A DNA stretch of 64,000 nucleotides. It comes from Panopea generosa. Its lineage: Eukaryota; Mollusca; Bivalvia; Adapedonta; Hiatellidae. This document shows positions 3,802 to 48,220 of the stretch, one piece after another. Under the pieces are notes generated by a model, which was not told where the DNA came from, did not search any database, and worked only from the letters and a program-made list of their open reading frames with translations. The number at the start of each line of letters is the position of its first letter. Position 1 is the first letter of the stretch. The position numbers and the translations under genes are program-made. Where the stretch lies: positions 81,251,556-81,315,555 of the forward strand of contig CM055899.1 in assembly GCA_029582155.1 (NCBI GenBank). Direction: 5' to 3'.

Positions 3802-4262
3802 TCATTTTGGCTCCTCTGGACTGAGGGGGGCTCGGTGATCTTCCCGCGTTATTTTATGAACGCTGTTGCTATTGTCCTTAATCAATATATTGCCGTTTGA
3901 CGACCATGCACCTATCAAATGTTTTCCTTTGACCAGATGACGGGCTTTGTATAGCAGGCCATTTCGAAACTTGGTTAAATCCTCATTTATGTATTTGCCC
4001 TTATAACCACGATCCTTGGCTAAGGTAAGCGCACGGTACAACATCTGGCGAGCTTGATACGACCCAAACTTAACACTAATGGCTCGGGACTTTCCGACTT
4101 GATCAATAGTGCGATGTTCGCGTTAATAGCCTTGGCCAGGTTCAACACAATTGAGTCAATACCGGAAATGCGTAAACAATTTCTACGGCTGTATTGCTCT
4201 CTAGCATCTGCTGCAGATTCGATGGAAGCCACCCTCGTCTTAAGAGCGACATATTGAAACTG
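3802..4262 (-). pseudogene. LINE ORF1-like protein remnant, frameshifted
   Basis: Read on the minus strand, the upstream part ends a coiled-coil-like segment and runs into REQYSRRNCLRISGI and DSIVLNLAKAINANI. About 40 bases later, in another frame, it resumes with GKSRAISVKFGSYQARQMLYR and KDRGYKGKYINEDLTKFRNG. This order (coiled coil, Q/N-Y-S-R-R-N-C motif, then the RQ-LY-A/KG-K-IxEDLT block) is what I know from ORF1-like proteins of non-LTR retrotransposons in invertebrate genomes, comparable to the L1 ORF1p C-terminal fold. A deletion and frameshift near 4100-4110 removes the Asp-Arg-Ser-His-Arg-type segment usually found between the two parts. There is no complete start or end. The family assignment is from recalled motifs; clade is not resolved. 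Confidence 0.7.
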
Positions 4263-14384: not shown

Positions 14385-14673
14385 TCATTTACGCAGTGTG
14401 GCTTTAAGAAATACATGACAGACGTCATATGGATTAGCATCTCCAGAAACTCGTCTTTCCTCAAAGTAGCCTTTACCATTTTGTGAAACATGTAAAGGAA
14501 TTCTAACACTGCTTTTAAACTTTTCTCCAACTGTGCATACAAACTCATCTGACTTTGATACGTAATCTCCGGACAGTCGCCATACTGCATCCATTCCATT
14601 ACTCAAGTCATACTTCTTAAGCAGATCTTCTTGTGAATGCATTGAGAGATTTTCTATTGCTTCTAGTATATAC
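14385..14673 (-). CDS. glul-like: GS-like gene, last coding exon
   Basis: The acceptor TATTTTAG is at 14681-14674. The first base completes a Lys codon begun in the previous exon, giving DGGYK|YILEAIENLS. The exon then encodes VWRLSG (Arg of the RLTG site), SSVRIPL, GYFEERRVSG and NPYDV, ending ATLRK and TGA at 14387-14385. Compared with animal GS, the Arg after IP and the ANR triplet are lost. Confidence 0.85.
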
Positions 14674-17600
14674 CTAAAATATATGATAAAATATCATTAT
14701 ATTGTTCATTCGTTAATTATCTATACAGTGCGAACATATGCTGATGTTTAGACATATTTTGATGGAGGGAATATTTTGTGCTGTAACTTTAAATTATCTT
14801 TCTTGATATCTACCTGGGTATACCAAATATTCCAAAAATTAGTAAACTGCTGGTCACCACCTACCTCCAAAACTGAATTACAATTATGCATTTTTTCACG
14901 TCTTATTAAAAATTGTTTTATTCATATAATATATTTGCTCGTACCATTACGAATATGCGTTTTGTTATTAAAACTTATGTTAATATTGGAGTTATTCAAG
15001 TAAATATAGTATTCATTACCATGCAACTATAACAGAAAATTAGTATAAGGTTATTATACAGTTCACTGTACAGTATGGATTTATATTGAATGCTGTGGTA
15101 AAAGGTAAAAACCTGTATTGGACGAGACTCCGCAGGCGCCGAGTCCAATACAGGTTTTCAACACAACATTGACGAGTACAATAAAGTACATATTGTACAG
15201 TGGACTGTGTAATGACCTTTTTATTATTAACCTCGAGTTCTTTTCATATGAAACACAATATCAGATTACTATTTTATAAAAACAATTTACTTTAACCACT
15301 GGTAATTTTCTTTAAACTACGGAAAAATAACACGTAGTTGATGTTTATCACATTTTTTTGTTAATAGTTATGTTGACTCTTTTAAATAGATATATCAATA
15401 TTAATTTTATTCCTTTATCACAGCGGTTTTCCTTTTTAAATTCATTTTTGTTTTTAAATTAAATTTTTTAAGTATCTATTAATATGTTTTGGAATAATAT
15501 ATACTACAATTTCTCAAATAAATGTATGTTGTTTGTTGTTTCAAACGACACAATATTCATTTGGAGTGCCTCAGTGATTTTGTCTATATGTTATATCTGA
15601 GATATGATGAGTATTTATATAATAAGAGTTACCATTCCTTAACGTCCAATACGAAATTATTATCGATTTTCGGGATGGTCGAACCATCCGATACTAAAAA
15701 TCTATCCGGATTTTCGGGACGCTTCCGGTTTGAAGCGTACAATACTGATTTCTTACGTACAATCACGTGGTACAAATGCTCGAAGCTCATTGAGTAGCTA
15801 TTTTAGGTGGATAATTATTATTTATATTTACTTGTATCCACCATCGTTTCTCATCTGCTTTGTACTAAAATTGACATGTAATGTACAACGAGTGCCAGTA
15901 GATTTTATACATTGAGGATTAGAAAACGTCATTCCAACTCCATGCATCTCACATAATCTTTGTAATATATATCTGGAGACGTGCAGCTGATCAGCAGCCT
16001 CCATTGCAGGCAATGGTCCGGTCTGATATTCCCACTGAAATCAGATAACATACCGCTTACGTAAATGCAAATGATGCTAGTTTCAAAATGAAAACATATA
16101 TCAAATAATGGTTTTAACATATGTATGTGTTCAATTGTTTATTTGCACTATACATGTACCATTAATTCAAGTATTGAGCGTTTAAATATCATTCTAATTC
16201 ACATTTGACCCCATTGCATAGTTTACTCTCTATCTATATTTTGAATCCATTGCATATATAACTCTCTATTTAGAGTCAATTTACTACGTGTCTTCACTTT
16301 TATTTAATCTGATAGCAAAATACGTTTAGAATAAAAAGAAGCAAGTCAGGCAAACTTTATTTCCAAATCGATGTAATAATACAAGCTCATCTTCTGACAA
16401 TATATCACCGACAAATTAGCTGACAGCTGACAGACAAGCATAGATACTATCAAGCATTGTTTTCATTTCATTTCAATATGTTGTGGATGGTTTTTATTTT
16501 AATGTGGTCATGTTACTCTATGGAGAGGTTCCTATTAATTCTGATATGGTTTGATGCTATTCTACTGTTGTCATGTTACTCTATGATGAGGTTCCCATTA
16601 ATTCTGATATGGTTTGATGCTTTTTCTACTGTTGTCATGTTACTCTATGATGAGGTTCCTATTAATTCTGATATGGTTTGTTCCTATTCTACTGTTGTCA
16701 TGTTACTCTATGATCAGGTTCCCATTATTTCAGATATGGTTTGATGCTATTCTACTGTTGTCATGTTACTCTATGATCAGGTTCCCATTAATTCTGATAT
16801 GGTTTGATGCTATTCTACTGTTGTCATGTTACTCTATGGTGAGGTTCCTATTAATTCTGATATGGTTTGATGCTATTCTATTGTTGTCAGTTTAAAGAAC
16901 AATGTGATTCAGTGGCATTCTGATGTGGTATAAAAAGTGGTATAATTATAATATTTAGTATAAATTGTGACTATTCGGTGAATTAAATCATTGTATTTGA
17001 ATTAGACTTGCCAATTGAATAACGTATATTTTCTATATATAAATGGTCGAAAATGTCTCAGCGTCATCAAACATATCCGAGTAACGATTCAGTTTAAACT
17101 TAATTGCAGGCTATTATAATTATGTATTCAATAAAGAATTAGACCATACATCTAGTTCAGGTGTTGCCAGTAACCAGTGTTGGTTAACAGAACTTAAACC
17201 TTTGATACCTGATCTTGATATCGAGGACGTCTGGCGAAGACGAAATCCTACCAAAACAGAATTGACATTCTCACGTGTGTTCGCAGAAGCGAGAATCGAT
17301 TATTTTCTTTGTAATAAAGCAATTGATAATGAGATAGATAAAGTACGCCTCTTTCAATAATCGGACCATAAATGCATGTGTTTTAGAAAAATCGGAATAT
17401 AAGGAGATAATAACAACTAAGAACAAAGAGTATATTGATAAATGAAATAAATAAGTATAATTCGAAAGCATAATGGTGGGACTTAACTAAACGTAAAATA
17501 AAATCAGTTTCAATGGACTTCTGTAAAGAACAGTCAGAAAAAAATGCGCTATTCGAGGTGTAATCCCCACCATTGATTTTTGTTCTTTATTCTATAGTAA

Positions 17601-20600
17601 ATAATAAAAGTTTGAAGGCTTGTCATTCATAGAGAGTGCCAAATGAAAGAAGTGAAACCTACATTTTACTGTTTATCAACCTCTGCACTATCAAAATATG
17701 ATGAGAAATGTAGGGGTCATGTGTCATATAAGAGATTTTTTTCTGCTCAGTGTGTACACTGGTGACAAAGTGAAAGTAGACTTCCGAAATCATGAATTCA
17801 TACCCCAATTTTCAAGCATCGTTTTTTTTTCTAAATTCACAATTCAAGCATGACAATGCTATCAAAATGTTCAAAATACATCAACAATGCCATTCAAATA
17901 AAAAAATGAGCATTAAAATAAGGAAAATGCATTTTTAAAGAAGAATAATTGAGGATTATTTATAACCGCCATTATGCGACTACCCCACGGAAGCACTTCC
18001 TTTTTGCAATGGTGGTACTATGCCTATAAGGAAACTATTTTTTTTTAATTTCATAATTACCTCTTTTTTACTAAGTACTATCAATATGAAGTAATACTGC
18101 CAAGTTGCAGGCATTAAATACTGGAACTTTTGTCAAATACCACTTTTTACATGATCATTATATACAGGCGCGAGATGTTGACCGACATGCAATTTTGATG
18201 TGTTTGACTAATTTTACCAAAAACATTTTTTCTTTACCTAATTCCATTAAAATTTTTACACCAAAATAGTCTCATGATACACCGAAGACATTATCTTACA
18301 AAAATACATTATTCAATACAATGTACATACTAAAAATTGCACATTTAAATCATCCAAAATAAAAAATCTTCAAAATTTTGTGATTTTTCAAGAAATTTCA
18401 ATGTAAATATGCACATATATGCTTTGTTTGAGGCATAAACTTGCCAAAATGTTGTTTTTTATGAAGCAAATGTCTCCAATTTGTCATTTAAGACTATGAG
18501 AGTGTAAAAAAGAGGTTATTTTACCTACAATTAACATTTTGGAAAATCACCCCCATTTCACTCAAGTCTCTCTTATAGGTGTAACCCCACCATTGATTTT
18601 TGTTCTTTATTCTATAGTAAATAATAAAAGTTTGAAGGATTGTCATTCATAGAGAGTGCCAAATGAAAGAAGTGAAACCTACAATTTACTGTTTGTCAAC
18701 CTCTGCACTATCAAAATATGATGAGAAAAGTAGGGGTCATGTGTCATATAAGAGATTTTTTTCTGCTCAGTGTGTACACTGGTGACAAAGTGAAAGTAGA
18801 CTTCCGAAATCATGAATTCATATCCCAATTTTCAAGCATCATTTTTTTTTTCTAAATTCACAATTCAAGCATGACAATGCTATCAAAATGTTCAAAATAC
18901 ATCAACAATGCCATTCAAATAAAAAAAATTTAGCATTAGAATAAGGAAAATGCATTTATAAAGAAGAAGAATTGAGGATTATTTATAACGCCATTATGCG
19001 ACTACCCCACGGAAGCACTTCCTTTTTTGCAATGGTGGTACTATGCCTCGAACACATTGAAAAACAGATACAAGATTTCATAATATAACATACTATAAAA
19101 AATTGCCAATTTTCAATAAACATTCAAAACAAAATAAACATTACTATGAACTGCAAACAAACACCGGAAAAATAAGACCTAAGGTTAACTTTATAGAGAA
19201 AAATCAAAATTATTCTAAAAAGTTTTAAAAAGTATGGTCCAAAATAAAATGCTCTAAATGGGACTTAAAATTTGATATATCCTCTATTTTGAACGAACAA
19301 GTTCACTTGTACAAAAGAGATTGACATCCGTAGGAATAGGCTCTGCTAGAAATATATTATCTTACTTAATAAAAAAGTGAAAACGGATATGTCCGTGACC
19401 TAAAACTTGTAAAAATTACTGCAATGTCTAATAGTTAGAAACTTATTTCCTGTAGCTGTGGAGGAAAACTTGAAATTCAGTTAAACGAAAACATTGAATG
19501 TGAAATTTTGAAGGCAATACATAATAGTTACCAAACAGTAATATTTAATATATAAGCGACACAAACGATAGGTGATAAGTCATTAAGTCAGTATGACCTC
19601 TCTATCAGAAAATGATGTTTCCATCAGCAAGATGAATGTTATCATTTGAGTAATCGCCTTCTTGTTTAATTATTGAGTTATATATACATCCACTGACACT
19701 TTTCGATAGCCATGGACTACCCAGATAGACATTTAAGGCTATTTGGGACAACGTTTTCTGAGTGTATACTGCAGATACGTTCATATCAGCAGAGATAAAG
19801 TATGTATAAGATAGTGTATAAGAATCCATGATGAGCATCCTTGTGGGATAGAAATATCTCACCCAAGAGGTCGAAACTACATGCAGGGGCGAGGCTCTGC
19901 CGAGTTCCCTGCATGTAATTTTGACCAAGATGATGAGATTTTTCTATCCCACATGGATAAATTCATGATGATTATTTTCTCCCATTCATCGTAGTAACAT
20001 GATAGATCTTCGATAATTCTTCATCGCAAAACTATTCTACTGTTTTTAATGTGTGTGTAACGCCAAAATGGACATTTTAAAGTACATTTTAAAAGTATGT
20101 ACTAGAAATTACACCTGTTAATTTCTCCGCACGTTGTTTGTTTAAATAATTCACTTCAAATATAACATTTACTCTGACATTTTTCTTGTAGGTAAGCAAG
20201 ACGTCATAAATATAAAGGTTAACATCATTATTCTGACGTAACGTCTATCTCTTTTTTACAGTTTCCTAAGACAAAATCAGGTTTTAAAATATTTTCGTAG
20301 ACATGAAAATGAAAATGTATATGATTACGATTTGTTGATAAAGAAATAGATTACAAACAATGATTTAGTCACAGATTTTCGTGAGGCCGTGTGAGAAAGC
20401 TATCACGTGACATGGAATATATAGTTTTCCTCCATAGGGAAGCCCGTCTGTTCTATGAGCAGAAATGGGAGAAATTATTAATCCTTCAATAATTCCAAGA
20501 GGCAACGAGGATTAACCTGTCATGATATACGTAAAATATATTTTTTCTCAAATGAATAAGAAAGGAACAAAAGTTATATTTGATGGTCATGCAGATAAAT

Positions 20601-23600
20601 CTTCAATTTGAGACACGACATTGGCCAAATAGTGCACAATATATGATAAAAGAATCCCCTGAAGCGTACAACGCAATAAAAAGAGGACAACGACTGACTC
20701 GGTTATATTGAGTCTGTGGATAAGGGTTACGAAATATACATCCCGAGAACTGCCTTAAAATATAAGGCAACTTTTTGAGACGACAGCAACACGGCATTCT
20801 TTATTAAAGACTGCAAATGTATAGGGAGACATGACTGCGAAAATAAAAATACCGCACTTAGCAGACAGTGTTTATTTAACTTTAATAAAAAGACGACAAT
20901 CATCCGGGGATACCGATATTTTCAACAGATGTTGAGTCATCCAAATAATAGCCTTCTGTGATTATACTTGCTGATTAAATGGTGTTAATATGCTAGGTAT
21001 TATGCTTACAAAGTTCACATGAAGTCAGAGATGAAACATACCATGAAGAAATCAATAAATACATGGGAGATTATTTTCACCAAAAACACACACGTTGGCT
21101 TTATGTATGCAATACTATATGATGCCTTCTTGCAATTTATAAATGTGAAATACTTTACACTATACATGACAATGAAATGTTCGACTAAACTGAATTTGCA
21201 ATTAATCAATGAATCTTCAGAAAAAAAACTATATTTTGTCTGGCTGGAAATATGGTGAAATAAAATTAAACTCTAGACTGCCATTTTTTGGTTATATTTT
21301 TATAAGAAAATGCATGTTATGAAATTTATATTTATAACTGAGGTTGTATGACGTAAATCTGTACATTATATTATTTTATACATGTGCGATTAGTGTCAGT
21401 GATGGCTTCAGATAAAGCATTCAACAGTTTAATAATAATTAATTTTGAATTAAGGTTTAGATGAATATGTTATTGTTCAATTACAGCAAACTTTTTGATA
21501 TATTTCGAAGCAATATGTGTTACTTAGAAACATGTTTTTCTTTTCTGTCACGGTCGAACTATAATAATCGCAGATCTGCTGATTGAGTTATGTAAAAGGG
21601 GCATTTTCACATGTTGCAGATATAGAATTAAACATATATTGCCACTATTAGTTTTTTTATTGATAAACAAATTATAAGGATGGAGTATAATCTATTGCAG
21701 GAAACAAGAAAAGGTGTAACATAATAAGTGATGATCTTTTTAAAGAATAAACATTTTTTCATATAAGTAATGGGTTATAATTGAAACAGCACTTTCCCTT
21801 TGTTTGCTAGCTGTACATTTGATTCATGTTTAGCAAAAATATTTGGTAATATGAAAAATCAGCATAGAAACATTGTGTTGCATAAATTTAAGCACGCTTT
21901 AAGCTAAATTTATTACAGATGTACTAGATGAAATAGGTGGGCGTGGTAATTTTACATGCTTAAACGGCACATTTCAATACATTAATGTTCAAAGTATCTA
22001 TAATGAGTTACTTTTTTGGTAAGACACGTTTTGTTACAAACTAAATATCCTAGAAAATAACAGTTTTAGGTGTAAAACAGTGGATTATACACAACTAGTA
22101 GCATAGATGACCTTTTCAATTCTCAACGATTACAGTTTGGTGGCTACTTGCGGAAGGACGGTGGTTCTACTCAGTCTGACTCAGTCTGAGGTCTTCCTCC
22201 ACCAGTAAAACTGGATATGCCATCTATAACCTGAAATGTGTTGAAAATGACGTTAAACCCCATTCAAAAAAAAAAAAAAAAAAAAAGTTTGGTGGTATGT
22301 TTTAACTAATATAAATAAACTTCCCTATCGTTCGTTTGAAGTAAACTTTTGATATGTTTTCCAGCAATATATGTAAACAAAAAGATGAGCTTATAAACAT
22401 TCGGTTGCAATTTTGTCCAAGTTGGCATAAAATGGTTTAAGATTCACATTAAAATAGTTAAATAGTGGGATAATTATCCATGTTCAAAAGTCACAGTATA
22501 AATATATCATGGTTCTAAATAACCAAAAATGTGTTATTTTTATGATAGAAAAATTAAAGTTGTGGTGACCTTTTTAAAGCTTTATTATTTTTTAGTTAGT
22601 TGGCATGTTTGAACATGTTAAAAACAAGCTTTCCTATCGTCCGATAGCGGTAATTATTTAATATGTTAATATATGTAAATGTCGCCCTGGTTATTGTTTC
22701 ACAGATTGATATTTAAAATGTGAAGTAAACCTTCTTTCAATTACGCGTGTCCAATATGTCTGTTACCACTGAGCCTTCTGTATGTGTATATATTTTTGTG
22801 TGAGGTCACAGTTTACTTCTGAATTAATCGTTTTGGATTCTTCTAACTCAAATAACATAAATAATTATGTGCAACAAGCCCACCAGAACCCATATATGTT
22901 TTTGTCTTGCTCTACTGGACTTCAATATGTTAATACCCGACTTCAGCCATTAATTATTTAGTCTTTTTTTTAAGGAAGATTTTATAATAATGATAAGTAA
23001 ATGAATTAACGCCTTTGTGACAAGTCGTAAGTACTATAATTATTATTACCAGAACGAAATACGTTTATTTTTTTAAATTTGTAATTAATGAAACACCTGT
23101 ATTTTAGGACATGTGTCTTGATTTCTAAATGTATGTTTTATATATGTACAAACTACCAAACCCGTAACTATGGTATTATAATTATATTACTGTAATTATA
23201 AATTAACTGAAATATATCAATCAATATACATAGTATACGATGTTGAACGTACATGTTCATGTGGATACCTGTTATATTCTTTCTCAAAATTTAAATATAA
23301 CATACATTGAAATATAATGATGAAAGTGGACAACAATACATACTGTGTCATTTTCTAACGCAAATGGCATCGACGTCGGAGTCGGTGTGGTGCTTATCGC
23401 ATCAAAATGTTAATTTACTACTAAGGAATGGAAGTAACTTCATAAATGTGTTTAGTGGCAACATTGGAACGACAAGTTACTACATCATAATGTAAAATAT
23501 CAACGGAGAATGATATAAGAATGAAACCTTACCACATATATGTAAGATTATGAAGTAACCACGTCAGATTGACAAAGAACCAAATCAGAATATAATTAAG

Positions 23601-26600
23601 CCATTTTAAAATGAAAACAAATCACACCATACCGATAAGTGACCACCTCAGTATATACATCGACACCGAATATTATAAGAATAACAACAAACCATATCGG
23701 AATGAAAAGGTATCCAATACGATTGATAACGAAACACAGAAGAACGGTTACAAATCACTATATAATCTAAATTTATCATACAATAATGATAAAGAACAAC
23801 AATAAGCAGTTACCACATACGAATGACAGCAAACCACATCAGAAGGCAAAGGGGACATATGTTAAGTGCCCATATTATACTGACAAATAACCGAACCTTA
23901 ATGAAAATTGACTACATCATATTGTAAACTGAGCACATCAGAATGACATTGATTCACACAAAAATGTCGACGAAACACATCAAAATGAAAATGATATAAT
24001 GAGATCACAGTCATCAAAAAACGAACAACGCGATTATCTAAAAAGATCATAAAAGAATCACAACGAACCAAACAAAAATGGAAAAGCACCACATCATGTA
24101 AAATGATAACTACATTAATAGTGGCCACATCGTCATTTAAAGTGGCCACACAACATCATTAAAAGTGCGCACACAACATCATTAAAAGTGGCCACACAAT
24201 ATCATTAAAAATGGCCACACAACATCATTACAAGTGCCCATACACCATCATTAAAAGTGGCCACACAATATCATTAAAAGTGGCCACACACCATCATTAA
24301 AAGTGGCCACACAACATCATTAAAAGTGGCCACACATCATCATTAAAAGTGCCAATACACCATTATTAAAAGTGGCCACACAACATCATTAAAAGTGACC
24401 TCACATCATCATTAAAAGTGGCCACAAAATATCATTAAAAGTGCCCATACACCATCATTAAAAGTGGCCACACAACATTATTAACAGTGGCCACACAACA
24501 TCATTAAAAGTGCCCATACACCATCATTAAAAGTGGCCACACATCATCATTAAAAGTGGCCATACAACATCATTAAAAGTGGCTACACAATATCATTAAA
24601 AGTGACCACACAACATCATTAAAAGTGGCCACACACCATCATTAAAAGTGCCCATACACCATCATTAAAAGTGGCCACACATCATCATTAAAAGTGGCAA
24701 CACAACATCATTAAAAGTGCCCATACACCATCATTAAAATTGGCCACACAACATCATTAAAAGTGCCCATACACCATCATTAAAAGTGTCCATACAACAT
24801 CATTAAAAGTGGCCACACAACCATATTAAAAGTGGCCGCACATCATCATTAAAAGCGGCCACACAATATCATTAAAAGTGCACATATACCATCATTAAAA
24901 GTGGCCACATATCATCATTAAAAGTGCCCACACAACATCATTAAAAGAGCCCATACACCATCATTAAAAGTGGCAACAAAACATCATTAAAAGTGCTCAT
25001 ACACCATCATTAAAAGTGGCCACACAACATCATTAAAAATGGCCATACAACATCATTAAAAGTGGCCACACAACAACATTAAAAGTGCCCATACACCATC
25101 ATTAAAATTGGCCACATAACATCATTAAAAGTGGCCACACATCATCAATAAAAGTGCGCACACAACATCATTAAAAGTGGCCACACAATATCATTAAAAA
25201 TGGCCACACATCATCAATAAAAGTGCGCACACAACATCATTAAAAGTGGCCACACAATATCATTAAAAGTGGCCACACAACATCATTAAAAGTGCCCATA
25301 CACCATCATTAAAAGTGGCCACACAATATCATTAAAAGTGGCCACATATCATCATTAAAAGTGGTCACACAACATCATTAAAAGTGGCCACACATCATCA
25401 TTAAAAGTGCCAATACACCATTATTAAAAGTGGCCACACATCATCATTAAAAGTGGCCACACAACATCATTAAAAGTGGCCACACAATATCATTAAAAGT
25501 GACGACACAACATCATTAAAAGTGCCCACACACCATCATTAAAAGTGCCCATACACCATCATTAAAAGTGGCCACACATCATCATTAAAAGTGGCCACAC
25601 AACAACATTAAAAGTGCCCATACACCATCATTAAAATTGGCCACACAACATCATTAAAAGTGCCCATACACCATCATTTAAAGTGTCCACACAACATCAT
25701 TAAAAGTGGCCACACATCATCATTAAAAGTGGCCACAAAACATCATTAACAGTGCCCATAAACCATCATTAAAAGTGGCCACACAACACCATTAAAAGTG
25801 GCCACACAACATCATTAAAAGTGCCCATACACCATCATTAAAAGTGGCCACACATCATCATTAAAAGTGGCCACACAACATCATTAAAAGTGGCCACACA
25901 ATATCATTAAAAGTGACCACACAACATCATTAAAAGTGGCCACACACCATCATTAAAAGTGCCCATACACCAACATTAAAAGTGGCCACACATCATCATT
26001 AAAAGTGGCAACACAACATCAATAAAAGTGCCCATACACCATCATTAAAATTGGCCACACAACATCATTAAAAGTGCCCATACACCATTATTAAAAATGT
26101 CCACACAACATCATTAAAAGTGGCCACACAACCATATTAAAAGTGGCCGCACATCATCATTAAAAGTGGCCACACAATATTATTAAAAGTGCACATATAC
26201 CATCATTAAAAGTGGCCACACATCATCATTAAAAGTGGCCACTCAACATCATTAAAAGAGCCCATACACCATCATTAAAAGTGGCCACACAACATCATTA
26301 AAAGTGCTCATACACCATCATTAAAAGTGGCCACACAACATCATTAAAAATGGCCACACAACATCATTAAAAGTGGCCACACAATATCATTAAAAGTGGC
26401 AACACATCATCATTAAAAGTGGCCACATAACATCATTAAAAGTGGCCACACATCATCATTAAAAGTGCCCACACAACATCATTAAAAGTGGCCACAAAAC
26501 ATCATTAAAAGTGGCCATACACCATCATTAAAAGTGGCCACACAACATCAATAAAAGTGGCCACACAACATCATTAAAAGTGGCCACACAATATCATTAA

Positions 26601-29600
26601 AAGTGGCCACACATCATCATTAAAAGTGGCCAAATATCATCAGTAAAAGTGGCCACATCATTAAAAGTGGCCACACATCATTATTAAAAGTGACCACACA
26701 TCGTCATTAAAAGTGGCCACATCATCATTAAAAGTGTTACGTCCGAATGTTAAGGTATATACTACTATAAAGTGACCAGTCCAGAATGAAAAGCAACTGC
26801 AAATTACCACATCAGAGTGAAAAATGACCACAACAGAATGAAGGATTAGCACATTATAATTAAAAGTAGACATATCATAATATATAATATGACCACATCA
26901 GAATGTAACATTGCCACATTATAATTAAAAGAAACCATATCATAATGTAATCTGACCACATCAAAATAAAAGATTACCACATTATAATTATAAGTAGCCA
27001 TATCATAATGTAATATGACCATATCAGAATGCAGGATTTCAACATTATGATAAAAAGTAACCATATCATAATGTAAACTGACCACGTCAGAATGAAAGAT
27101 TAATACTTTATAATAAAAGTAACCATATTTTCATAATTAATCTGACCGCATCAGAATACAATTTTAAAAATAAAAACGCAATACTGTGTACCAAAATATA
27201 ATATAGTCAATATCGGTATTATTCCAAACTATGAATTACAGTTTATGATTAATATGCAACTCTTTCTAGTGACATTACTAATGGAAATCACAGGCAAAAC
27301 TATATCATGTAGTAGTTATATAAAAAAGAAAAAGATAAAAGGGAACTTTTTATTAGTAAAAAAATAAAAGAATTAGAAAATTCATTAATTGATCAAAATA
27401 AAGAAGAACTAGACACATCTAAGCTAAAATTAAACATGTATAGAAAGATAAATTACAAGGCTGTATTACAAGATCACGAGCTCAGTTTATTGAAAATGGG
27501 GAAAACCCAACACATTTTTTTTGCAATTTGGAAAAAAACACAATACTCAAGCATAACGATTTCATTCATCGAAAAAGAAAATGGATAACAGTTACATAAA
27601 CAATATGATATTCTGAACGAAACACACATATTTTATAAAAAAGTTATACTCAAATTGTGATATTAACTTGACAGATATAGATTTGACAAAATAATTCAAA
27701 AACCGTAATATACCAAAGTTATCTCCCTTAGAATCAAGTAACATTGCAGGTGAAATTACAAATGATGAAGTTACAGAAGCATTAAGTCTATGTCTAATGA
27801 TCTTGAAGGTAAAATTACACATGATGAGGGTGCAGAAGCACTAAAGTCTATGTCTAATGATCTTGAAGGTGAAATGACACCTTGTGAGGCTGCAGAAGCA
27901 TTAAAGTCTATGTCTAATGACCTTGAAGGTGAAATGACACATTATGAGGCTGCAGAAGTATTAAAGTCTATATCTAATAACCTTGAAGGTGAAATGACAC
28001 ATGATGAGGCTGCAGAAGCATTAAAATTTATGTCTAATGACATTGAAGGTGAAATTATACATGATGCGGCTGCAGAAGCATTAACGTCTATGTCTAATGA
28101 TCTTTAAGGTACAATTTCACATAATGAAGCTGCAGAAACATTAAAGTCTATGTCCAATGACCTTGAAGGTGAAGTTACACATGATGAGGCTACAGATGCA
28201 TTAAAGTTTATGTTTCACGACCTAGAAGGTACAATTACACATGATGAGGCTGCAGAAACATTAAAGTCTATGTCTAATGACCTTGAAGGTGAAGTTACAC
28301 ATGATGAGGCTACAGAAGCATTAAAGTTTATGTTTCACGACCTAGAAGGTACAATTACACATGATGAGGCTGCAATAACATTAAAGTCTATGTCTAATGA
28401 TCTTAAAGGTGAAATTACACATGATGAGGCTGCAGAAGCATTAAAGATTATGTCTAATGACGTTGAAGTTGGAAATTAACATAAAGAGGCTGCAGAAACA
28501 TTAAAGTCTATGTTTAAAGACTTTGAAGGTGAAGTAACACATGATGAGGCTGCAGAAACATTAACGTCTATGTCTAATGACCTCGAAGGTGAAATTACAC
28601 ATAATGAGACTGCAGAAACATTAAAGTCTATGTATAATGATCTTAAAGGTAAAATTACACATGATGAGGCTACAGAAGCATTAAAGTTTATGTTTCACGA
28701 CCTAGAAGGTACAATTACACATGATGAGGCTGCAGAAACATTAAAGTCTATGTCTAATGATCTTAAAGGTGAAATTACACATGATGAGGCTGCAGAAGCA
28801 TTAAAGATTATGTCTAATGACGTTGAAGTTGGAAATTCACATAAAGAGGCTGCAGAAACATTAAAGTCTATGTTTAAAGACTTTGAAGTAGAAGTAACAC
28901 ATGATGAGGCTGCAGAAACATTAAAGTCTATGTCTAATGACCTTGAAGGTGAAGTTACACATGATGAGGCTGCAGAAGCATTAAAGTCTATATCTAATGA
29001 TCTTAAAGGTGAAATTACACATGATGAGGCTGCAGAAGCATTAAAGTATATGTCTAATGACCTTGAAGGTGAAGTTACACATGATGAAGCTACAGAAGCA
29101 TTAAAGCTTATGTTTTATGTCTATGTCTAATGACCTTGAAGGTGAAGTTACACATGATGAAGCTACAGAAGCATTAAAGCTTATGTTTTATGACCTTGAA
29201 GGTAAAATTACACATGATGAAGCTACAGAAACATTAAAGTCTTTGTCTAATGATCTTAAAGGTGAAATTACACATGATGAGGCTGCAGAAGCATTAAAGA
29301 TTATGTCTAATGACGTTGAAGTTGGAAATTTACATAAAGAGGCTGCAGAAACAGTAAAGTCTATGTTTAAAGACTTTGAAGGTAAAGTAACACATGATGA
29401 GGCTGCAGAAACATTAAAGGCCATGTCTAATGACCTCGAAGGTGAAATTACACATAATGAGACTGCAGAAACATTAAAGTCTATGTCTAATGACCTCGAA
29501 GGTGACGTTTCACATGATAGATGCAATTAAGTATAGTACAAAATCAATGAAAACAAAATGGAAATTAGCATCATAATCTGACCATATCAGAATGCAAACT

Positions 29601-32484
29601 ACAACATTATAATAAAAAGTAACCACATCATAATGTAGTATAACCACATCAAAAGGACAGTAAATCTTTTTAGTAAATGTTGGTGTTCAATATAATTTTA
29701 CAGTGTTGTATAATTTAGTGAGCGTGTGCTTTTCTGACGTTGTTTCGTGTTTTGCTTATACTGCTTATATTGTGAAGTGTTTTTTTTTTAAAAAAATACC
29801 TCTGACGGCAAATCCTCTCTGTTCATTCCATACATCTTCAAGCCAGCATACATGCACGCCTTCATATGTAGTTCTGTTATATTACGCTGAAACGCTGCAT
29901 GTTTGCCTCCAAACAGTGCATTATTGTAGCCTGTATTTAATTTAAAAGCATTATATTCATTGAAATATATATACGAGTAAGATCCAGTTTATGTCTAGCA
30001 ATAAGTACCCCCATATATATAAATCATATCATGTGAACGTGCATCTAAAAATATTCCAAAAGTCGGAAAAACCGTTGTTTGTGATTCAGTTATCACTCTT
30101 TATGAAATAGAATTTTTCTGATTTCATTGTATCTTAATGACCAAACTGGTTTCCCTGTCTGCCTTTTATATATTGTTTGAGTAATGGATCTAAAAGTCAA
30201 TTATACTCATATAAGCTATAAGTACATGTAATTGTATCTACAGTCCAGATTAGTTACGTGTTAAATTTTGATATATAACATATGGGTGAAACCATTCCTT
30301 TGAGGGGATTGATTCTATAGTCTTGTGTACTTGGTTGGCAATGTAGCTAGGTGCGTTCGCCGTAGTCTGGTCTCTGTAAACGCATGTCTGGTTGTTCACA
30401 AATTATAATCCCTGTATATATATTAATTTATATAAAATTTAAGATCTAAATAACGATCGTTTTATGTTTGTATTAATGTCCCCTTTATTTGAACAAAAAC
30501 TCAAAGCCTTTGCTAGACTTCTGTTGCTCATCATTATTTATTATTATAAGATATGAACAACCTTGGCTGGTTTTTTCCTGAAACGACCACATTTGAAATT
30601 ATTTAAGCTCCAAGACTAGCTCTTTAGGTAAAATAGAGTGTTGAAATTTAAAGATAATGATAAGACCCTTGAAAGGTGCCAAATTTGATTACATGGTATA
30701 AACTAATGTATAGTCCCTGATTGGATGGTTTAAGCAGGTTTTTTCTTTATATTCCTAATCCTTATACCTTGCTTACAAACACTAGGTTTTGATCCATACA
30801 GACAGACAGATAGACAGACAGACTGATGAACGGACAAACGGGCAGTCTAGCAATACAATGCGAAAACAGTTTATTGTTATTCAAAATCTAACCAGGGAAA
30901 AATACATTTAAAATTTGAATCAAATAGTTGCCATAGAAAGTTTATCAATGAAATATTTATATTAGTTAAATTGAATTGTTAATCCGCAATATGACACTAT
31001 AATATCATCAAACCCAAATATTTATTTAAGTTAGAAATAAGTTCTCAAGATTATTTAAATACATATTCATTTCTTCATGGATAAAATAAGAAAACAAAGT
31101 TTATTTTTTAAATCAGTGATTACCTTTCTTTGGATCTTGCGTATATAAATACCAAGAATGGGGAATTTCATGGTCATCGACAAAAAAGAACTCTTGTTCA
31201 AATCCAAACCATGGTTCATCATCCATAACACCAAGAAGCATTTCTTTGTACTGTTCCCGTTTACTCGAGACTTCAGTTGTATACAAAATATTTAACATAC
31301 TGATAAATAATATAAAACAACTAAGCAATATTATACAATATTTAAACTTCATACTTATTTGTTTTAGATCGAAAGTGATGAAAAGTCATAGCTCAAATAT
31401 AAGGAAGACGCCCGTATCCTGGATAGAACCAGTACAGATAGTCGTTTTACACTTTTGGGAGACCATGTAGTCGGGCTAGAGATCGAACGCATCTAATCCA
31501 ATACATTACCGCCCTACTTTCAAAGTACTTATGAAATAGAATTAGTATGTATAAGAAAAAACGTATTCATGGCAATTTATATAGTATCACATGAATACGT
31601 GCGGATACTGGCTAGAAATTGGTGAGTTCAAGATAAAAATATGTATTCATGCTACGAGTTTGTCAGGCATTATAATATTCAGAAGACACATACCATGCGA
31701 TTTTCTCGATGTATTCATCAAATCACACAGAACAAGCTTATGTTTTCCTTTACGAAATGGATCCTTGTAAATAGCCACTGGTTTCATAGCGAGGTCCGGA
31801 TATGGTTCCTCCAACAACGTGGAGTACTGGATAGGACATTCTAAAATGAATGGATTTGTTAAGTGAAACATGTAAATACATGCAATAAGAAAAGATATAG
31901 ATAAAAAATAAAAACATCTCACAAAAACTTAAGTGTTTTAGACACGGAGCTGATTCGATATATTCCACAAAAAAATATGCATAGGATGAATTCAAGCAGT
32001 AGAAACACATTTTTCAATTAATCTTAACGGTTTTCACTATTTCTTTTCAGCATGCGTTTGTTCACACCTGTTCCAGAATGCTATGTGGATACTTAAATAC
32101 TGTGGTTATGTTTTTAATATTGAGACCTTTAACAGATTTCGTTGGTGTATATTAAATATACTAGTAGGCAAAATATGAATGCTGCAACATAATTATTACA
32201 TTTTCATTATTGAAATATATATAAAACACCAGACATATCATCACTTAGTAATGATGGTCATAGCTTTTAAAGCAGCATTAGATTATTTAATCAACTGAAG
32301 ACAAGAACTTAACATATCATGATACATATAACAGAACAATTTAAAACCTTCAGGACAGCTTGGCTCATATGAAGATGTGCACCGTTTTGGTTTTCATGTG
32401 AATATCAGCGTCTATCGTAATGTAGTCTAACAATACAGCTGTTTGGTCTTCGCTGGAAAACTCCATTGAAATAGGTACGTCCAT
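14385..32484 (-). CDS. glul-like: Divergent glutamine synthetase-like gene, seven coding exons
   Basis: Joined exons encode roughly 345 residues, close to the 360-375 of animal GS, the cytosolic enzyme making glutamine from glutamate, ammonia and ATP. Family landmarks appear in order: VLLDYITIDADIHMKTKT; KPVAIYKDPFRKGKHKLVLC; EPWFGFEQEF (the ExE metal ligands); RNITELHMKACMYAG; NREDLPSE|WEYQTGP (two further metal-ligand Glu); LHVNFSTKQMR; VWRLSG; SSVRIP; GYFEERR; and a C-terminus ending 13 residues after NPYDV, as usual. Two signatures are missing. The N-terminal W-x-F/Y-D-G-S-S block is replaced by QYSTLLEE, and PGNWNGAGCH reads KSTGTRCTLH at equal length, so only the His survives. From the 31694 exon onward, splice sites and phases are consistent with no internal stop. 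The start chosen is ATG at 32484, directly after an acceptor, implying an untranslated upstream exon. It could be a functional paralogue with a new role, a pseudoenzyme or a young pseudogene. Confidence 0.8.
15047..15220. repeat. Long palindrome (foldback element), GS intron
   Basis: Two arms of about 80 bases run from AAGGTTATTATACAGTTCAC to its counterpart ending GGACTGTGTAATGACCTT. The inner arms AAAACCTGTATTGGAC and GTCCAATACAGGTTTT are perfect. The centre is GC-rich (GAGACTCCGCAGGCGCCGAG), unlike the surrounding AT-rich intron. Confidence 0.85.
15832..16034 (-). CDS. glul-like: GS-like gene, sixth coding exon
   Basis: The acceptor is GATTTCAG ending at 16035 and the donor GTAAAT begins at 15831. 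The 203-nt exon enters in phase 0 and leaves after two bases of a codon. It encodes WEYQTGP (metal-ligand Glu), ADQLHVSRYILQRLCEMHGV and LHVNFSTKQMR. The ATP-site NGAG motif before the His is replaced. Confidence 0.85.
16478..16892 (+). repeat. 63-bp tandem repeat, ~6.5 copies
   Basis: Units contain GTTGTCATGTTACTCTATGA, then AGGTTCC and CTGATATGGTTTGATGCTA. GTTGTCATG recurs at 16566, 16631, 16694, 16757 and 16820, a period of 63 with one 65-bp exception. Since 63 is a multiple of 3, apparent ORFs (21-residue repeats) result and are not genes. Confidence 0.95.
17150..17555 (+). pseudogene. LINE endonuclease C-terminal remnant
   Basis: The translation LKPLIPDLDIEDVWRRRNPT, ELTFSRVFAEARIDYFLCN and then SDHKC matches the C-terminal part of the APE-type endonuclease of non-LTR retrotransposons, whose hallmarks are DxWR..(H/N)P....FT..S, RIDYFL and the catalytic SDH. 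An in-frame TAA sits directly before SDH. Further on, WDLTKRKIKSVSMDFCKEQS resembles the linker between endonuclease and reverse transcriptase. The remnant stops exactly where an inverted-repeat element begins at 17556. Confidence 0.75.
17556..18025 (+). mobile_element. ~470-bp inverted-repeat element, copy 1
   Basis: It begins AGGTGTAATCCCCACCATTG and ends CAATGGTGGTACTATGCCT, imperfect terminal inverted repeats of about 19 bp. It is nearly identical to 18577-19048. No coding capacity is seen. Confidence 0.75.
18026..18576. repeat. Spacer between the two ~470-bp copies
   Basis: AT-rich and non-coding. Its ends are themselves inverted: CCTATAAG at 18023 against CTTATAGG at 18572. It might therefore be a separate small insertion, or part of a longer element. 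Confidence 0.4.
18577..19048 (+). mobile_element. ~470-bp inverted-repeat element, copy 2
   Basis: A direct copy of 17556-18025 displaced by about 1020 bp, differing by scattered substitutions and single-base indels. The termini are AGGTGTAACCCCACCATTG and CAATGGTGGTACTATGCCT. Confidence 0.75.
19827..19967. repeat. Long palindrome (foldback element), GS intron
   Basis: The left arm 19827-19888 and right arm 19907-19967 pair along about 60 bases, including TGTGGGATAGAAATATCTCA against TGAGATTTTTCTATCCCACA and CATGCAGGG against CCCTGCATG. The loop is GCGAGGCTCTGCCGAGTT. The right arm runs directly into the dispersed repeat at 19970. Confidence 0.9.
19970..20475 (+). repeat. ~450-bp dispersed repeat, copy 2
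   Basis: Collinear with 12870-13345 (landmarks given there). Here it is joined at its left edge to the palindrome. In copy 1 only a decayed trace of the right palindrome arm is visible (CCGTCTCACATGAATT). Confidence 0.8.
20476..22137. other. Non-genic intron sequence
   Basis: AT-rich with no recognised element. The ORFs at 20603-20797 and 21015-21258 have no recognisable domain. Confidence 0.4.
22138..22286 (+). repeat. SINE 3' body with poly(A)
   Basis: GGAAGGACGGTGGTTCTACT, CCACCAGTAAAACTGG and ATGACGTTAAACCCCA are followed by about 20 A. This order matches the tail of molluscan SINEs as I recall them (V-SINE/RUDI type). No tRNA-like head is preserved. Confidence 0.55.
22287..23499. other. 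Non-genic intron sequence
   Basis: AT-rich; nothing supported. Confidence 0.4.
23500..24124. repeat. Degenerate left flank of the 23-bp satellite
   Basis: Loose repetitions of CACATCAGAATGA-type and ACCACATCA-type words with variable spacing. They look like old, diverged units beside the homogeneous array. Confidence 0.6.
24125..26745. repeat. 23-bp satellite, ~114 units, with 1311-bp higher-order repeat
   Basis: The unit is ATTAAAAGTGGCCACACAACATC, with frequent GTGCCCATACACC and GTGGCCACACATC variants. Marker variants recur exactly 1311 bp (57 units) apart: GGCCACACACCATC at 24627 and 25938; GGCCACACAACCATATT at 24811 and 26122; GTGCACATATACC at 24878 and 26189; GAGCCCATACACC at 24947 and 26258. 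A block of 57 units was therefore duplicated as a whole. No coding potential. Confidence 0.97.
26746..27160. repeat. Degenerate right flank of the 23-bp satellite
   Basis: Repeats of the form ATGACCACATCAGAATG and ACCATATCATAATGTAA at about 50-60 bp spacing. The same kind of sequence reappears at 29560-29665, after the LINE-derived block. Confidence 0.65.
27330..27780 (+). pseudogene. LINE ORF2 remnant, endonuclease-RT linker
   Basis: Translated in shifting frames it reads KRELFISKKIKELENSLIDQ, then AQFIENGENPTHFFCNLEKN (27480-27539; the family form is W-I-E-x-G-E-K-P-T-x-Y-F-x-N-L-E-K), then CDINLTDIDLTK, KLSPLESSNIAGEITNDEVT. This is the order found in L1/Tx1-like ORF2 proteins just before the RT fingers motif KSPGxDG. 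Frameshifts and stops are present (for example TAA in WITVT*). Where KSPGxDG should follow, the sequence turns into the 60-bp array. Confidence 0.8.
27742..29520 (+). repeat. 60-bp minisatellite made from LINE reverse-transcriptase coding sequence
   Basis: About 29 tandem copies of 60 bp, each encoding a variant of LEGEITHDEAAEALKSMSND. The first unit (IAGEITNDEVTEAL) is continuous with the LINE linker upstream, so the array is an expansion of that 20-codon piece. The frame is broken three times: a substitution to TAA near 28105, another at 28477-28479 (AAT TAA where the sister unit has AAT TCA), and a 13-nt insertion near 29120 that shifts frame. There is a one-base deletion at the first junction. 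Larger blocks (six units, about 28,150-28,500 and 28,510-28,860) also look duplicated. No RT core follows. Confidence 0.92.
29560..29665. repeat. Relic of the degenerate 23-bp satellite flank
   Basis: ATCTGACCATATCAGAATGC and GTAACCACATCATAATGTAG repeat the pattern at 26746-27160. The LINE remnant and 60-bp array therefore sit inside the older satellite edge. Confidence 0.65.
29800..29930 (-). CDS. glul-like: GS-like gene, fifth coding exon
   Basis: The acceptor AAATACAG precedes 29930 and the donor GTATTT follows 29800. The 131 nt equal two bases plus 43 codons. The translation FGGKHAAFQRNITELHMKAC then MYAGLKMYGMNREDLPSE aligns with the GS segment around GRDIVEAHYRACLYAG and NAEVMP. The phase is correct on both sides. 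Confidence 0.85.
29931..31123. other. GS-like gene intron between fourth and fifth exons
   Basis: AT-rich, with a short (CAGA)n run at about 30797-30826. Nothing else is supported. Confidence 0.5.
31124..31270 (-). CDS. glul-like: GS-like gene, fourth coding exon
   Basis: The acceptor ACAACTGAAG ends at 31271 and the donor GTAATC begins at 31123. The exon is 147 nt, entering with two bases and leaving with one. It encodes EQYKEMLLGVMDDEPWFGFE then QEFFFVDD. EPWFG-x-EQE is the most diagnostic GS motif in the gene and carries two of the metal-binding glutamates. Confidence 0.9.
31345..31525 (-). repeat. tRNA-derived SINE in a GS intron
   Basis: On the minus strand GGCGGTAATGTATTGGATTA is A-box-like and GCGTTCGATCTC is a B box. 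ACTGGTTCTATCCAGGATAC follows, and the element ends near GATCTAAAACAAATAAG. The body matches 52858-53040 (GGACTGGTTCTACTTGGCA ... ATCTAGCTAAAATAAG), so the two are one family. Confidence 0.65.
31694..31840 (-). CDS. glul-like: GS-like gene, third coding exon
   Basis: The acceptor CATTTTAG ends at 31841 and the donor is CATG|GTATGT. It encodes MKPVAIYKDPFRKGKHKLVL then CDLMN, matching the GS segment [20 protein letters not shown]. Where animal GS has the FDGSS motif this exon reads QYSTLLEEPYPD. An alternative acceptor (ATCCAG, exon from 31826) would let it join the small upstream exon in phase 0. Confidence 0.8.
32068..32099 (-). CDS. glul-like: Tentative 32-nt exon of the GS-like gene
   Basis: Flanked by CCACAG and GTGTGA, it reads FKYPHSILEQ after two leading bases. 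This fits the short GS segment between KTRT and PEW (the xPKSIEELP region). Its entry phase does not match the end of the upstream exon by one base, so it stays tentative. Confidence 0.4.
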
Positions 32485-46004: not shown

Positions 46005-48220
46005 GGTTGTCTATTTATCTGTGTCTGTCAGTGTGTACCAGTGATATGACCGGACTGGTTATCTGTGTTTACCAGTACTATAACCGGACTGTCTATCTGT
46101 ATCTGTCAGTGTTTACCAGTGATATTACCGTTTAACAGTTATATTGATTTTCTGTCTATTTGTGTCTGTCAGTGTTTAACAGTGATATTTCCGTTCTTTA
46201 TCTTTTTCTGTCTTTGTTAACCATTGATATTACCGGACTGCTTATCTGTGTCTGCCAGTGTTTACCAGTGATATTGCCTGTCTGTCCAGCTGTATTTGTC
46301 AGTGTTGACTATTGATATTACCAGACTGTATCTGTGTCTGTCAGTGTTTACCAGTGCTATTGTTAGTATGTCTATCAGTGACTGTCAGTGTTTAACAGAT
46401 ATATTGAGTTTCTGTCTATCTGTTTCTGTCAGTGTTTAACAGTGATATTGCTGTTCTGTCTAACTGTGTCTGTCTTTGTTAACCAGTGATATTACCGGAC
46501 TGTTTTTCTGTCTGTCAGTGTTTACCAGTGATATAATCGGACTGTTAATCTGTGTCTGTCAGTATTTACGAGTTATATTACCGGACTGTTTATCTGCGAT
46601 TACCAGTGATATTTCCGGACTCTTTATCTGTGTTTGTGTCTGTCGATGGTTATCAGTTATATTATGGGATAGTTTATTTGTGTTTGTCAATAATTACCGG
46701 TGATATTACCGGACTGTTTATCTGTGTTTGTCAGTGTTTACCAGTGATATTACCGGACTCTTTATCTGTGTTTGTGTCTGTCGATGGTTATCAGTTATAT
46801 TATGGGATAGTTTATTTGTGTTTGTCAATAATTACCGGTGATATTACCGGACTGTTTATCTGTGTTTGTCAGTGTTTACCAGTGATATTACCGGATTGTT
46901 TATCTGTGTATGTCAGTGTTTACCAGTGGTTATACCGGGCTGTTTATCAGTGTATGTCAGTGTTTATCAGTGATAAAACCGTGCTGTTTATCTGTGTATG
47001 TCAGTATTTACGAGTTGTATTACCGAATTGTTTATCTGTGATTACCAGTGATATTTCCGGATTGTTTATCTGTGTCCGTCAGTGTTTACTAGTGATATTG
47101 ATTGTATGTCTATCAGTGTCTGTCAGTGTTTACCAGTGATATTGATGGTATGTCTATCAGTGTTTTCAGTGTTTAACGGTGATATTGATAGCCTGTCTAT
47201 CTGTGTTTGCATTTTACCAGTGATATTACCGGACTCTTTATCTGTGTTTGTGTCTGTCGATGGTTATCAGTTATATTACGGGATAGTTTATTTGTGTTTG
47301 TCAATAATTACCGGTGGTATTACCGGATTGTTTATCTGTGTATGTCAGTGTTTACCAGTGGTTATACCGGGCTGTTTATCAGTGTATGTCAGTGTTTATC
47401 AGTGATAAAACCGTGCTGTTTATCTGTGTCTGTCAGTGTTTACCAGTGATATTACCGGACTGTTTATCTGTGTATGTCAGTGTTTACCAGTGATATTACC
47501 AGACTGTTTATCTGTGCCCGTAAATGTTTACCAGTGCCATTACCGGATTGATTATCTGTGTCTGTCAGTGTTTACCATTGATATTTCCGGACTGTTTATC
47601 TGTGCCTGTCAGTGTTTGCCAGTGATATTACAGGATTGTTTATCTGTGTCTGCCAGTGTTCACCAGTGGTATTAACGGACTGTTTATCTGTGTCTGCCAG
47701 TGTTTACCAGTTATATTACCGGACTGATTATCTGTGTCTGCCAGTGTTTACCAGTGACATTACCGGACTGTTTTTCTGTGTCTGCCAGTGTTTACCAGTT
47801 TTGTTACCGGTACTCTTTATCTGTGCCTGTCAGTGCTTACCAATGATATTACCGGACTCTTTATCTGTGCCTGTCAGTGCTTACCAATGGTATTACCGGA
47901 CTGTTTATCTGTGCCTGTCAGTGTTTACCAGTGGTGTTACCGGACTGTTTATCTGTGTTTGCCAGTGTTTACCAGTGACATTACCAGACTGTTTATCTGT
48001 GTCCGCCAGTGTTTACTAGTGATGTTACCAGACTGTTTATATGTGCCTGTCAGTGTTTACCAATGGTATTACTGGACAGTTTAACTGTGTCTGCCAGTGT
48101 TTACCAGTGGTATTAACGGACTGCTTAACTGTGTCTGTCAGTGTTTACCAGTGGTATTACCGGACTGTTTATCTGTGTCTGCCAGTATTTACCAATGATA
48201 TTACCGGACTGTTTCAGTGT
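46005..48220 (+). repeat. 44-bp minisatellite, ~50 units
   Basis: The unit is close to TGTGTCTGTCAGTGTTTACC followed by AGTGATATTACCGGACTGTTTATC. CAGTGTTTACCAG at 47434 and 47478 shows the 44-bp step. Marker blocks (TGTCGATGGTTATCAG) recur at 46642, 46780 and about 47256; the first two are 138 bp apart. The left end (46005-46450) is the most diverged. Long open frames of 70-195 codons across the array are artefacts of low stop density. Confidence 0.95.

Follow-up and report, generated by a model that had tools for sequence, protein, structure and literature searches.

A minisatellite whose units repeat a coding segment of a LINE lies, between remnants of that LINE, in the window analysed here, a stretch of 64,000 nucleotides (C6:81251556-81315555) in a genome searched as 39 contigs totaling 1.474 Gb. 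TRF, run on the window, reports a period of 60 and 29.4 copies at 27744-29518 (score 2090), a head-to-tail arrangement whose unit length falls inside the minisatellite range (above 10 and below 100 bp). In the register set here, units 1 to 29 occupy 27743-29494 and are followed by a 24-bp partial unit ending at 29518 (Table 1). A previous sequence-only reading had placed about 29 copies of a 60-bp unit correctly, and the two nonsense changes that it noticed are real (in-frame stops in units 7 and 13), as is its 13-nt insertion in unit 23. It had taken these to be the only lesions, however, and overlooked a 1-nt deletion in unit 1. The fusion of the first unit to an in-order LINE linker was also recognized correctly, but the linker reading SPLESSNIAGEITNDEVTEAL (piece 27695-27811) is out of the frame of the array because unit 1 is 59 bp long. 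Pairwise divergence among units averages 15.3%. Three units (12, 18 and 26) are identical, and blocks of units recur, with 12-15 reappearing as 26-29 and 12-14 as 18-20 at 0-7% divergence, which argues that the array grew partly by duplication of multi-unit blocks.

Table 1. Features of the array, its LINE flanks and the surrounding gene (positions in the window).
Feature	Position	Strand	Basis or remark
63-bp minisatellite, abutting the 5′ edge of the LINE remnant	26806..27157	+	TRF and alignment
Remnant of LINE ORF2 covering the end of the endonuclease-RT linker, with a broken frame	27158..27742	+	DNA alignment
Unit 1	27743..27801	+	59 bp after a 1-nt deletion; runs on from the LINE linker without a break; 11.7% off the array consensus
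Units 2-29, 60-bp minisatellite (LEGEITHDEAAEALKSMSND)	27802..29494	+	TRF and unit register
Unit 23	29062..29134	+	73 bp, contains the 13-nt insertion
Terminal partial unit, 24 bp	29495..29518	+	Fused to LINE sequence, GAT common to both
Part of LINE ORF2 that follows the RT palm (STKSIKTKWKLA region)	29516..29571	+	DNA match to C10, C5 and C7
Same 63-bp minisatellite, resuming after the LINE remnant	29574..29660	+	Score 108
GS-like exon before the intron	29800..29907	-	Start is the reach of the tblastn match
GT-AG intron containing the whole structure	16035..29799	-	tblastn, boundaries by eye
GS-like exon after the intron	15831..16034	-	PDB glutamine synthetase and tblastn

The gene around the array (14394-31823, minus strand) is, by its protein matches, a diverged glutamine synthetase (GS) homologue. 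With human glutamine synthetase as the tblastn query, minus-strand matches are found at 14678-14394 (E 2.4e-13), 16037-15765 (E 4.2e-13), 29907-29791 (E 2.4e-6) and 31823-31701 (E 3.3e-5), together with a weak one at 31259-31152 (E 0.018); the matched stretches are 33-44% identical to the human protein. Glutamine synthetases in the PDB match the open piece 15831-16040 (best E 3.1e-14), on which the Pfam family Gln-synt_C stays under its cut-off (E 0.0054). A Pfam search of the genome placed Gln-synt_C at four places, all on contig C12 (15 candidates scored), with the window gene under threshold. By eye, the reading ...LPSE / WEYQTGP joins in frame across the 13.8-kb intron, and the array and the LINE are antisense to the gene. 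The earlier placement of the array inside an intron of a GS-like gene is thus borne out by the tblastn matches and by this in-frame GT-AG intron from 29799 to 16035.

The two flanks of the array are one and the same LINE. On the left, 27158-27800 is 88.5% identical, over 650 alignment columns, to a copy on contig C5 (L002, reverse complement 1055-1701), and the linker is disrupted by stops and frameshifts. On the right, the 56 bp at 29516-29571 are 87.5% identical to a copy on C10, 89.3% to that on C5 and 91.1% to one on C7. LINE sequence had previously been noticed upstream only, and the span then described as LINE-born, although correct in its coordinates, was too narrow: the whole remnant, array included, runs 5′ to 3′ from 27158 to 29571. 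Between the partial unit and the right-hand segment, about 0.86 kb of RT sequence is absent, namely fingers and palm with the FADD box (measured on C7); GAT at the deletion junction is common to both, and the part of the LINE past 29571 is absent as well. Neither an A-rich 3′ tail nor a target-site duplication is visible in the window copy, the 3′ end of which is lost. The 63-bp minisatellite that resumes on the right has a score of 108; the best of 200 shuffles scored 27.

Searched at the DNA level with 27600-27780, the genome yielded five places, namely the window and loci on C5, C7, C10 and C12, and all four of the other loci (L002-L005) carry a single unit in LINE context. In the copies on C5, C10 and C7, the linker, one unit and the variably decayed RT fingers region follow each other in order; the sequence left of the array is alignable from 27158 in C5 and C10, and from 27454 in the 5′-truncated C7 copy. 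The C12 copy, which starts only about 40 bp before its unit, has one unit and the fingers region. C7 reads across the unit into the fingers as LESNALEGEITHDEAAETLKSMSND-RSPGND, and its unit differs from the array consensus at one of 60 bases, a site that is itself mixed within the array (13 A and 16 G among 29 units). Within the 9.9-kb stretches around the four copies, TRF detected no array with a 60-bp unit. Matches to the unit in the genome amount to at least 16 rows, at least 12 of them in the window array and at least four at single-unit places elsewhere. The possibility of further arrays had been raised before; the unit does occur elsewhere, singly, whereas the array was found in the window only, the counts being lower bounds. 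The term satellite used in the sequence-only reading is hence too strong, and the array is, as far as seen, a single-locus minisatellite.

The C5 copy contains an RT domain (RVT_1, E 1.6e-26) and, upstream, an APE-type endonuclease (Exo_endo_phos, E 1.5e-5; 25.3 bits against a cut-off of 24.5), and a FADD box is present in both C5 and C7. The best PDB match of the C5 copy is 8c8j (RNA-directed DNA polymerase, E 3.7e-34), and the entries that follow, with E from 8.9e-34 upward, bear the name LINE-1 ORF2 protein. The parent thus appears to be a low-copy EN+RT LINE related to L1, a relatedness judged by nearest PDB relatives. The C7 copy shows, by eye, 5′ truncation, an A-rich tail and a 9-bp target-site duplication.

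The position of the unit within ORF2 was assessed with a profile built from other LINE loci of this genome. An RT search gave 10,377 first-look candidates; 100 of these were scored, and 30 loci were returned. The profile drew on 28 loci (L032-L059), which yielded 25 stop-free 70-residue segments before K/R-SPGxD, 13 of them distinct; two loci with stops and one without the motif were dropped. This profile of 13 ORF2 segments matches pieces of the array at E 8e-24, 1e-18, 3.2e-18 and 3.7e-16, values that are sums over several units. Single units score mostly between 1e-2 and 1e-4, with a few worse than 1 and a best stretch at 6.6e-6. The linker piece 27695-27841 is matched at E 1.5e-5, and two smaller linker pieces at 0.005 and 0.012. 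All seven window pieces at E of 0.012 or less lie inside 27589-29527, while the best of 14,414 control pieces, from five block shuffles and the reversed window, reached E 0.81. The unit was previously assigned to the ORF2 segment before the RT fingers, and the profile upholds this assignment. The same reading would have failed if unit or linker had been unrelated to non-LTR ORF2, and the profile matches both.

A candidate for the founding repeat can be seen in the C7 copy, where TCTAATGCCC immediately precedes the unit and TCTAATGACC closes it, agreeing at 9 of 10 positions exactly 60 bp apart. Among 1742 positions in C7, this is the only pair of at least 9/10 at spacing 60. The bounding repeat of C10 agrees at 8/10 with a spacing of 59 (the sole 9/10 pair of C10 at spacing 60 sits away from the unit), and that of C5 at 6/10 with a spacing of 60. 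Decay has affected the left half of the repeat in the window copy (about 6/10 by eye), and ten distinct relative sequences reach 4-5/10 at best. Slippage or unequal exchange could plausibly have been seeded by a repeat like that of C7, and under the Haber-Louis model such an event between the repeats is the likely start of the array. We infer the founding state from C7, because the bounding repeat is clear in that copy only and the founding sequence itself is not preserved. A direct repeat is evidently not sufficient, since the C7 LINE holds 60 pairs of at least 9/10 at spacings of 20-200 (306,252 tested) that seeded nothing, and the C7 unit itself is unexpanded despite its 9/10 repeat.

The account that we favor, with a probability of roughly 0.93, is that the array was born in place from the LINE segment and is neutral, non-coding DNA. 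Judging from the flanks, a low-copy, L1-related EN+RT LINE would have inserted into the 63-bp minisatellite within the intron of the GS-like gene. Near-identical 10-bp repeats could bound the 60 bp before the fingers motif in this LINE subfamily, as in C7, and slippage or unequal exchange between the two may have duplicated these 60 bp. Unequal exchange and block duplication, the latter visible as recurring blocks, could then have produced about 29 units. The loss of the RT fingers and palm would be due to a separate deletion at the GAT microhomology; the LINE also lacks its 3′ part. Because the junction of the original last unit has been deleted, expansion and deletion may have come in either order. 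Taken as a whole, the interpretation given in the sequence-only reading is supported.

Some timing can be read from the same copies. The LINE branch of the window copy is 6.7% long (private sites 27/411, or 6.6%), and the units differ from the single C7 unit by 9.3% on average (5-18.3%). The divergence of the units compared with the LINE branch suggests that the array started early in the life of the insertion, although this dating is rough, since the units diverge somewhat more than the flank and are 60 bp long. The block duplications with near-identical units appear to be younger than the start of the array.

A wider proposition is that minisatellite birth is unusually active in this genome, with chance direct repeats in transposable element (TE) coding sequence being routinely amplified and much of the minisatellite mass coming from TE or gene coding segments. 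The array would then be one datable instance for which the unexpanded sister copies happen to be preserved. We consider this generalization unlikely.

It might also be supposed that the LINE family targets minisatellites by preference, and that our array is a by-product of a recombination-prone array. Three of the five family loci do touch minisatellites: the window and C7 have them on both sides (units of 63 and 55 bp, respectively), and C12 has one of 56 bp flush left, with a 72-bp array beginning 75 bp past the end of the LINE match. However, the minisatellite units at the three sites are unlike in sequence and length. Moreover, in a small random sample of ten 3-kb stretches from five contigs (L060-L069; period of at least 10, length of at least 200), minisatellites account for 22% of bases (6,699/30,000), and at this background at least three of five loci would touch one by chance with P = 0.077. 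Preferential targeting was dropped on these figures and seems quite improbable. With minisatellites at 22% of the sample, a LINE remnant inside a 63-bp minisatellite is unsurprising.

Alternatively, the LINE may have arrived with the array, if a master element with tandem units had retrotransposed here. Although the array itself is compatible with such an arrival, the four other family loci have one unit each, no second place with the array was found (on counts that are lower bounds), and the divergence of the units fits growth in place, all of which makes this origin very improbable.

A further reading, for which we see next to no chance, is that the array is all or part of a genuine repeat protein gene with only a secondary likeness to LINEs: there is a 216-aa open stretch at 28480-29130, Pfam gives 41 families at E up to 10, with three of the 25 listed nominally past their cut-offs (DUF7433, E 1.3e-6; STIV_B116-like, E 4.6e-6; HEAT_PBS, E 3.3e-4), and the PDB offers importin beta-3 (E 0.0016) and many calmodulins. 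These matches, however, scatter across unrelated folds, which is what a short helical repeat would be expected to give; the array contains stops, the 13-nt insertion and the 1-nt deletion, and its LINE context is evident at the DNA level on both sides. The 57 distinct variants among the units comprise 45 nonsynonymous changes, 11 synonymous changes and one stop, compared with 43.0, 12.3 and 1.7 expected from 5000 permutations that keep the base-change spectrum. There is thus no excess of synonymous changes, and no purifying selection on the encoded repeat was detected with these 57 variants, a number that affords modest power. The repeat-protein reading was dropped on the scattered matches and this lack of codon constraint. 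As the sequence-only reading proposed, a unit length that is a multiple of three accounts for the open frame of what is presumably neutral DNA; the array gives no sign that this frame is being maintained. Neither four broken linker pieces from the window nor three linker/unit pieces of C5 and C7 gave a Pfam family, one linker piece had no match in the PDB, and searches of the phage collection (distant mode) and of viral contigs gave no match and no relative, respectively.

PROsat, Pvc 20 and HinfI are abundant satellite families. As described in PMC9659126, PROsat of Phodopus and Pvc 20 of the harbour seal are similar to LINE-1 ORF2, and HinfI of the chicken includes part of CR1 ORF2, so that these satellites share with our array a unit derived wholly or partly from LINE coding sequence. 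The present array differs in that it was found at one locus, has a 60-bp pre-fingers unit, and can be seen together with both its LINE flanks and with four paralogues in the unexpanded state. Jurka and Gentles (cited in PMC3389668) reported minisatellites that arose within human Alu and other TEs, and a human survey counted 7,276 TE-derived arrays, of which 300 are flanked by direct repeats of 5-20 bp (PMC3389668). Under the Haber-Louis model given there, short direct repeats within a TE may seed a tandem array, and seeding of TE-derived minisatellites by such repeats is also described in PMC6947457. For the human arrays as for ours, short direct repeats bounding a TE stretch may have acted as the seed, though in our case the repeat is clear in the C7 copy only. 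That survey selected arrays with unit identities of at least 95%, whereas ours has about 29 units with a mean pairwise divergence of 15% and recurring blocks. For the retrotransposon-derived arrays CRM1TR and CRM4TR of maize, illegitimate recombination at short homologies and internal deletion have been proposed (PMC3648361), processes that are also invoked here. Their source, however, is the LTR-UTR region of an LTR retrotransposon, and they are centromeric or pericentromeric, unlike the present array.

The kind of event is therefore already known, and what sets this array apart as an unusually clear example is the completeness of the record left in place. Traces of how a minisatellite began are usually lost. 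In this case the unexpanded paralogues, both flanks of the element, a candidate seed repeat and, in the LINE flanks, a neutral clock are preserved together, which makes the direct-repeat seeding model testable by comparison of LINE copies. The genome seems rich in more such cases. Taken on its own, the array is probably no more than a neutral curiosity.

Several minor observations concern the surroundings of these elements. Minisatellites occupy 9,820 of the 64,000 window bases (15%), the present array included, with TRF tracts at 186-2198, 24113-26736, 26806-27157 and 46152-48214. Around the C7 LINE, the 55-bp minisatellite covers 1-2800 and 5909-9099 of L022 (reverse complement), in at least 51 and about 58 copies. 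On C12, the 56-bp minisatellite lies at 4253-4955 of L023; its unit may partly resemble a tRNA-derived SINE promoter, and it is perhaps another TE-born array. An open piece of the window at 3805-4122 (minus strand) has a weak Baculo_FP_2nd match (Pfam E 0.0018, under cut-off) and resembles a LINE ORF1-type protein. Many LINE relatives at 59-65% amino-acid identity have an open ORF2 of about 1260-1290 residues (for example L033, L034 and L036), and because of these many open frames, found with 100 of the 10,377 candidates scored, the LINE group looks recently active. One RT match (G000:C7:17006651-17007895) belongs to an open frame that, at 3707 residues, greatly exceeds the usual length of ORF2.
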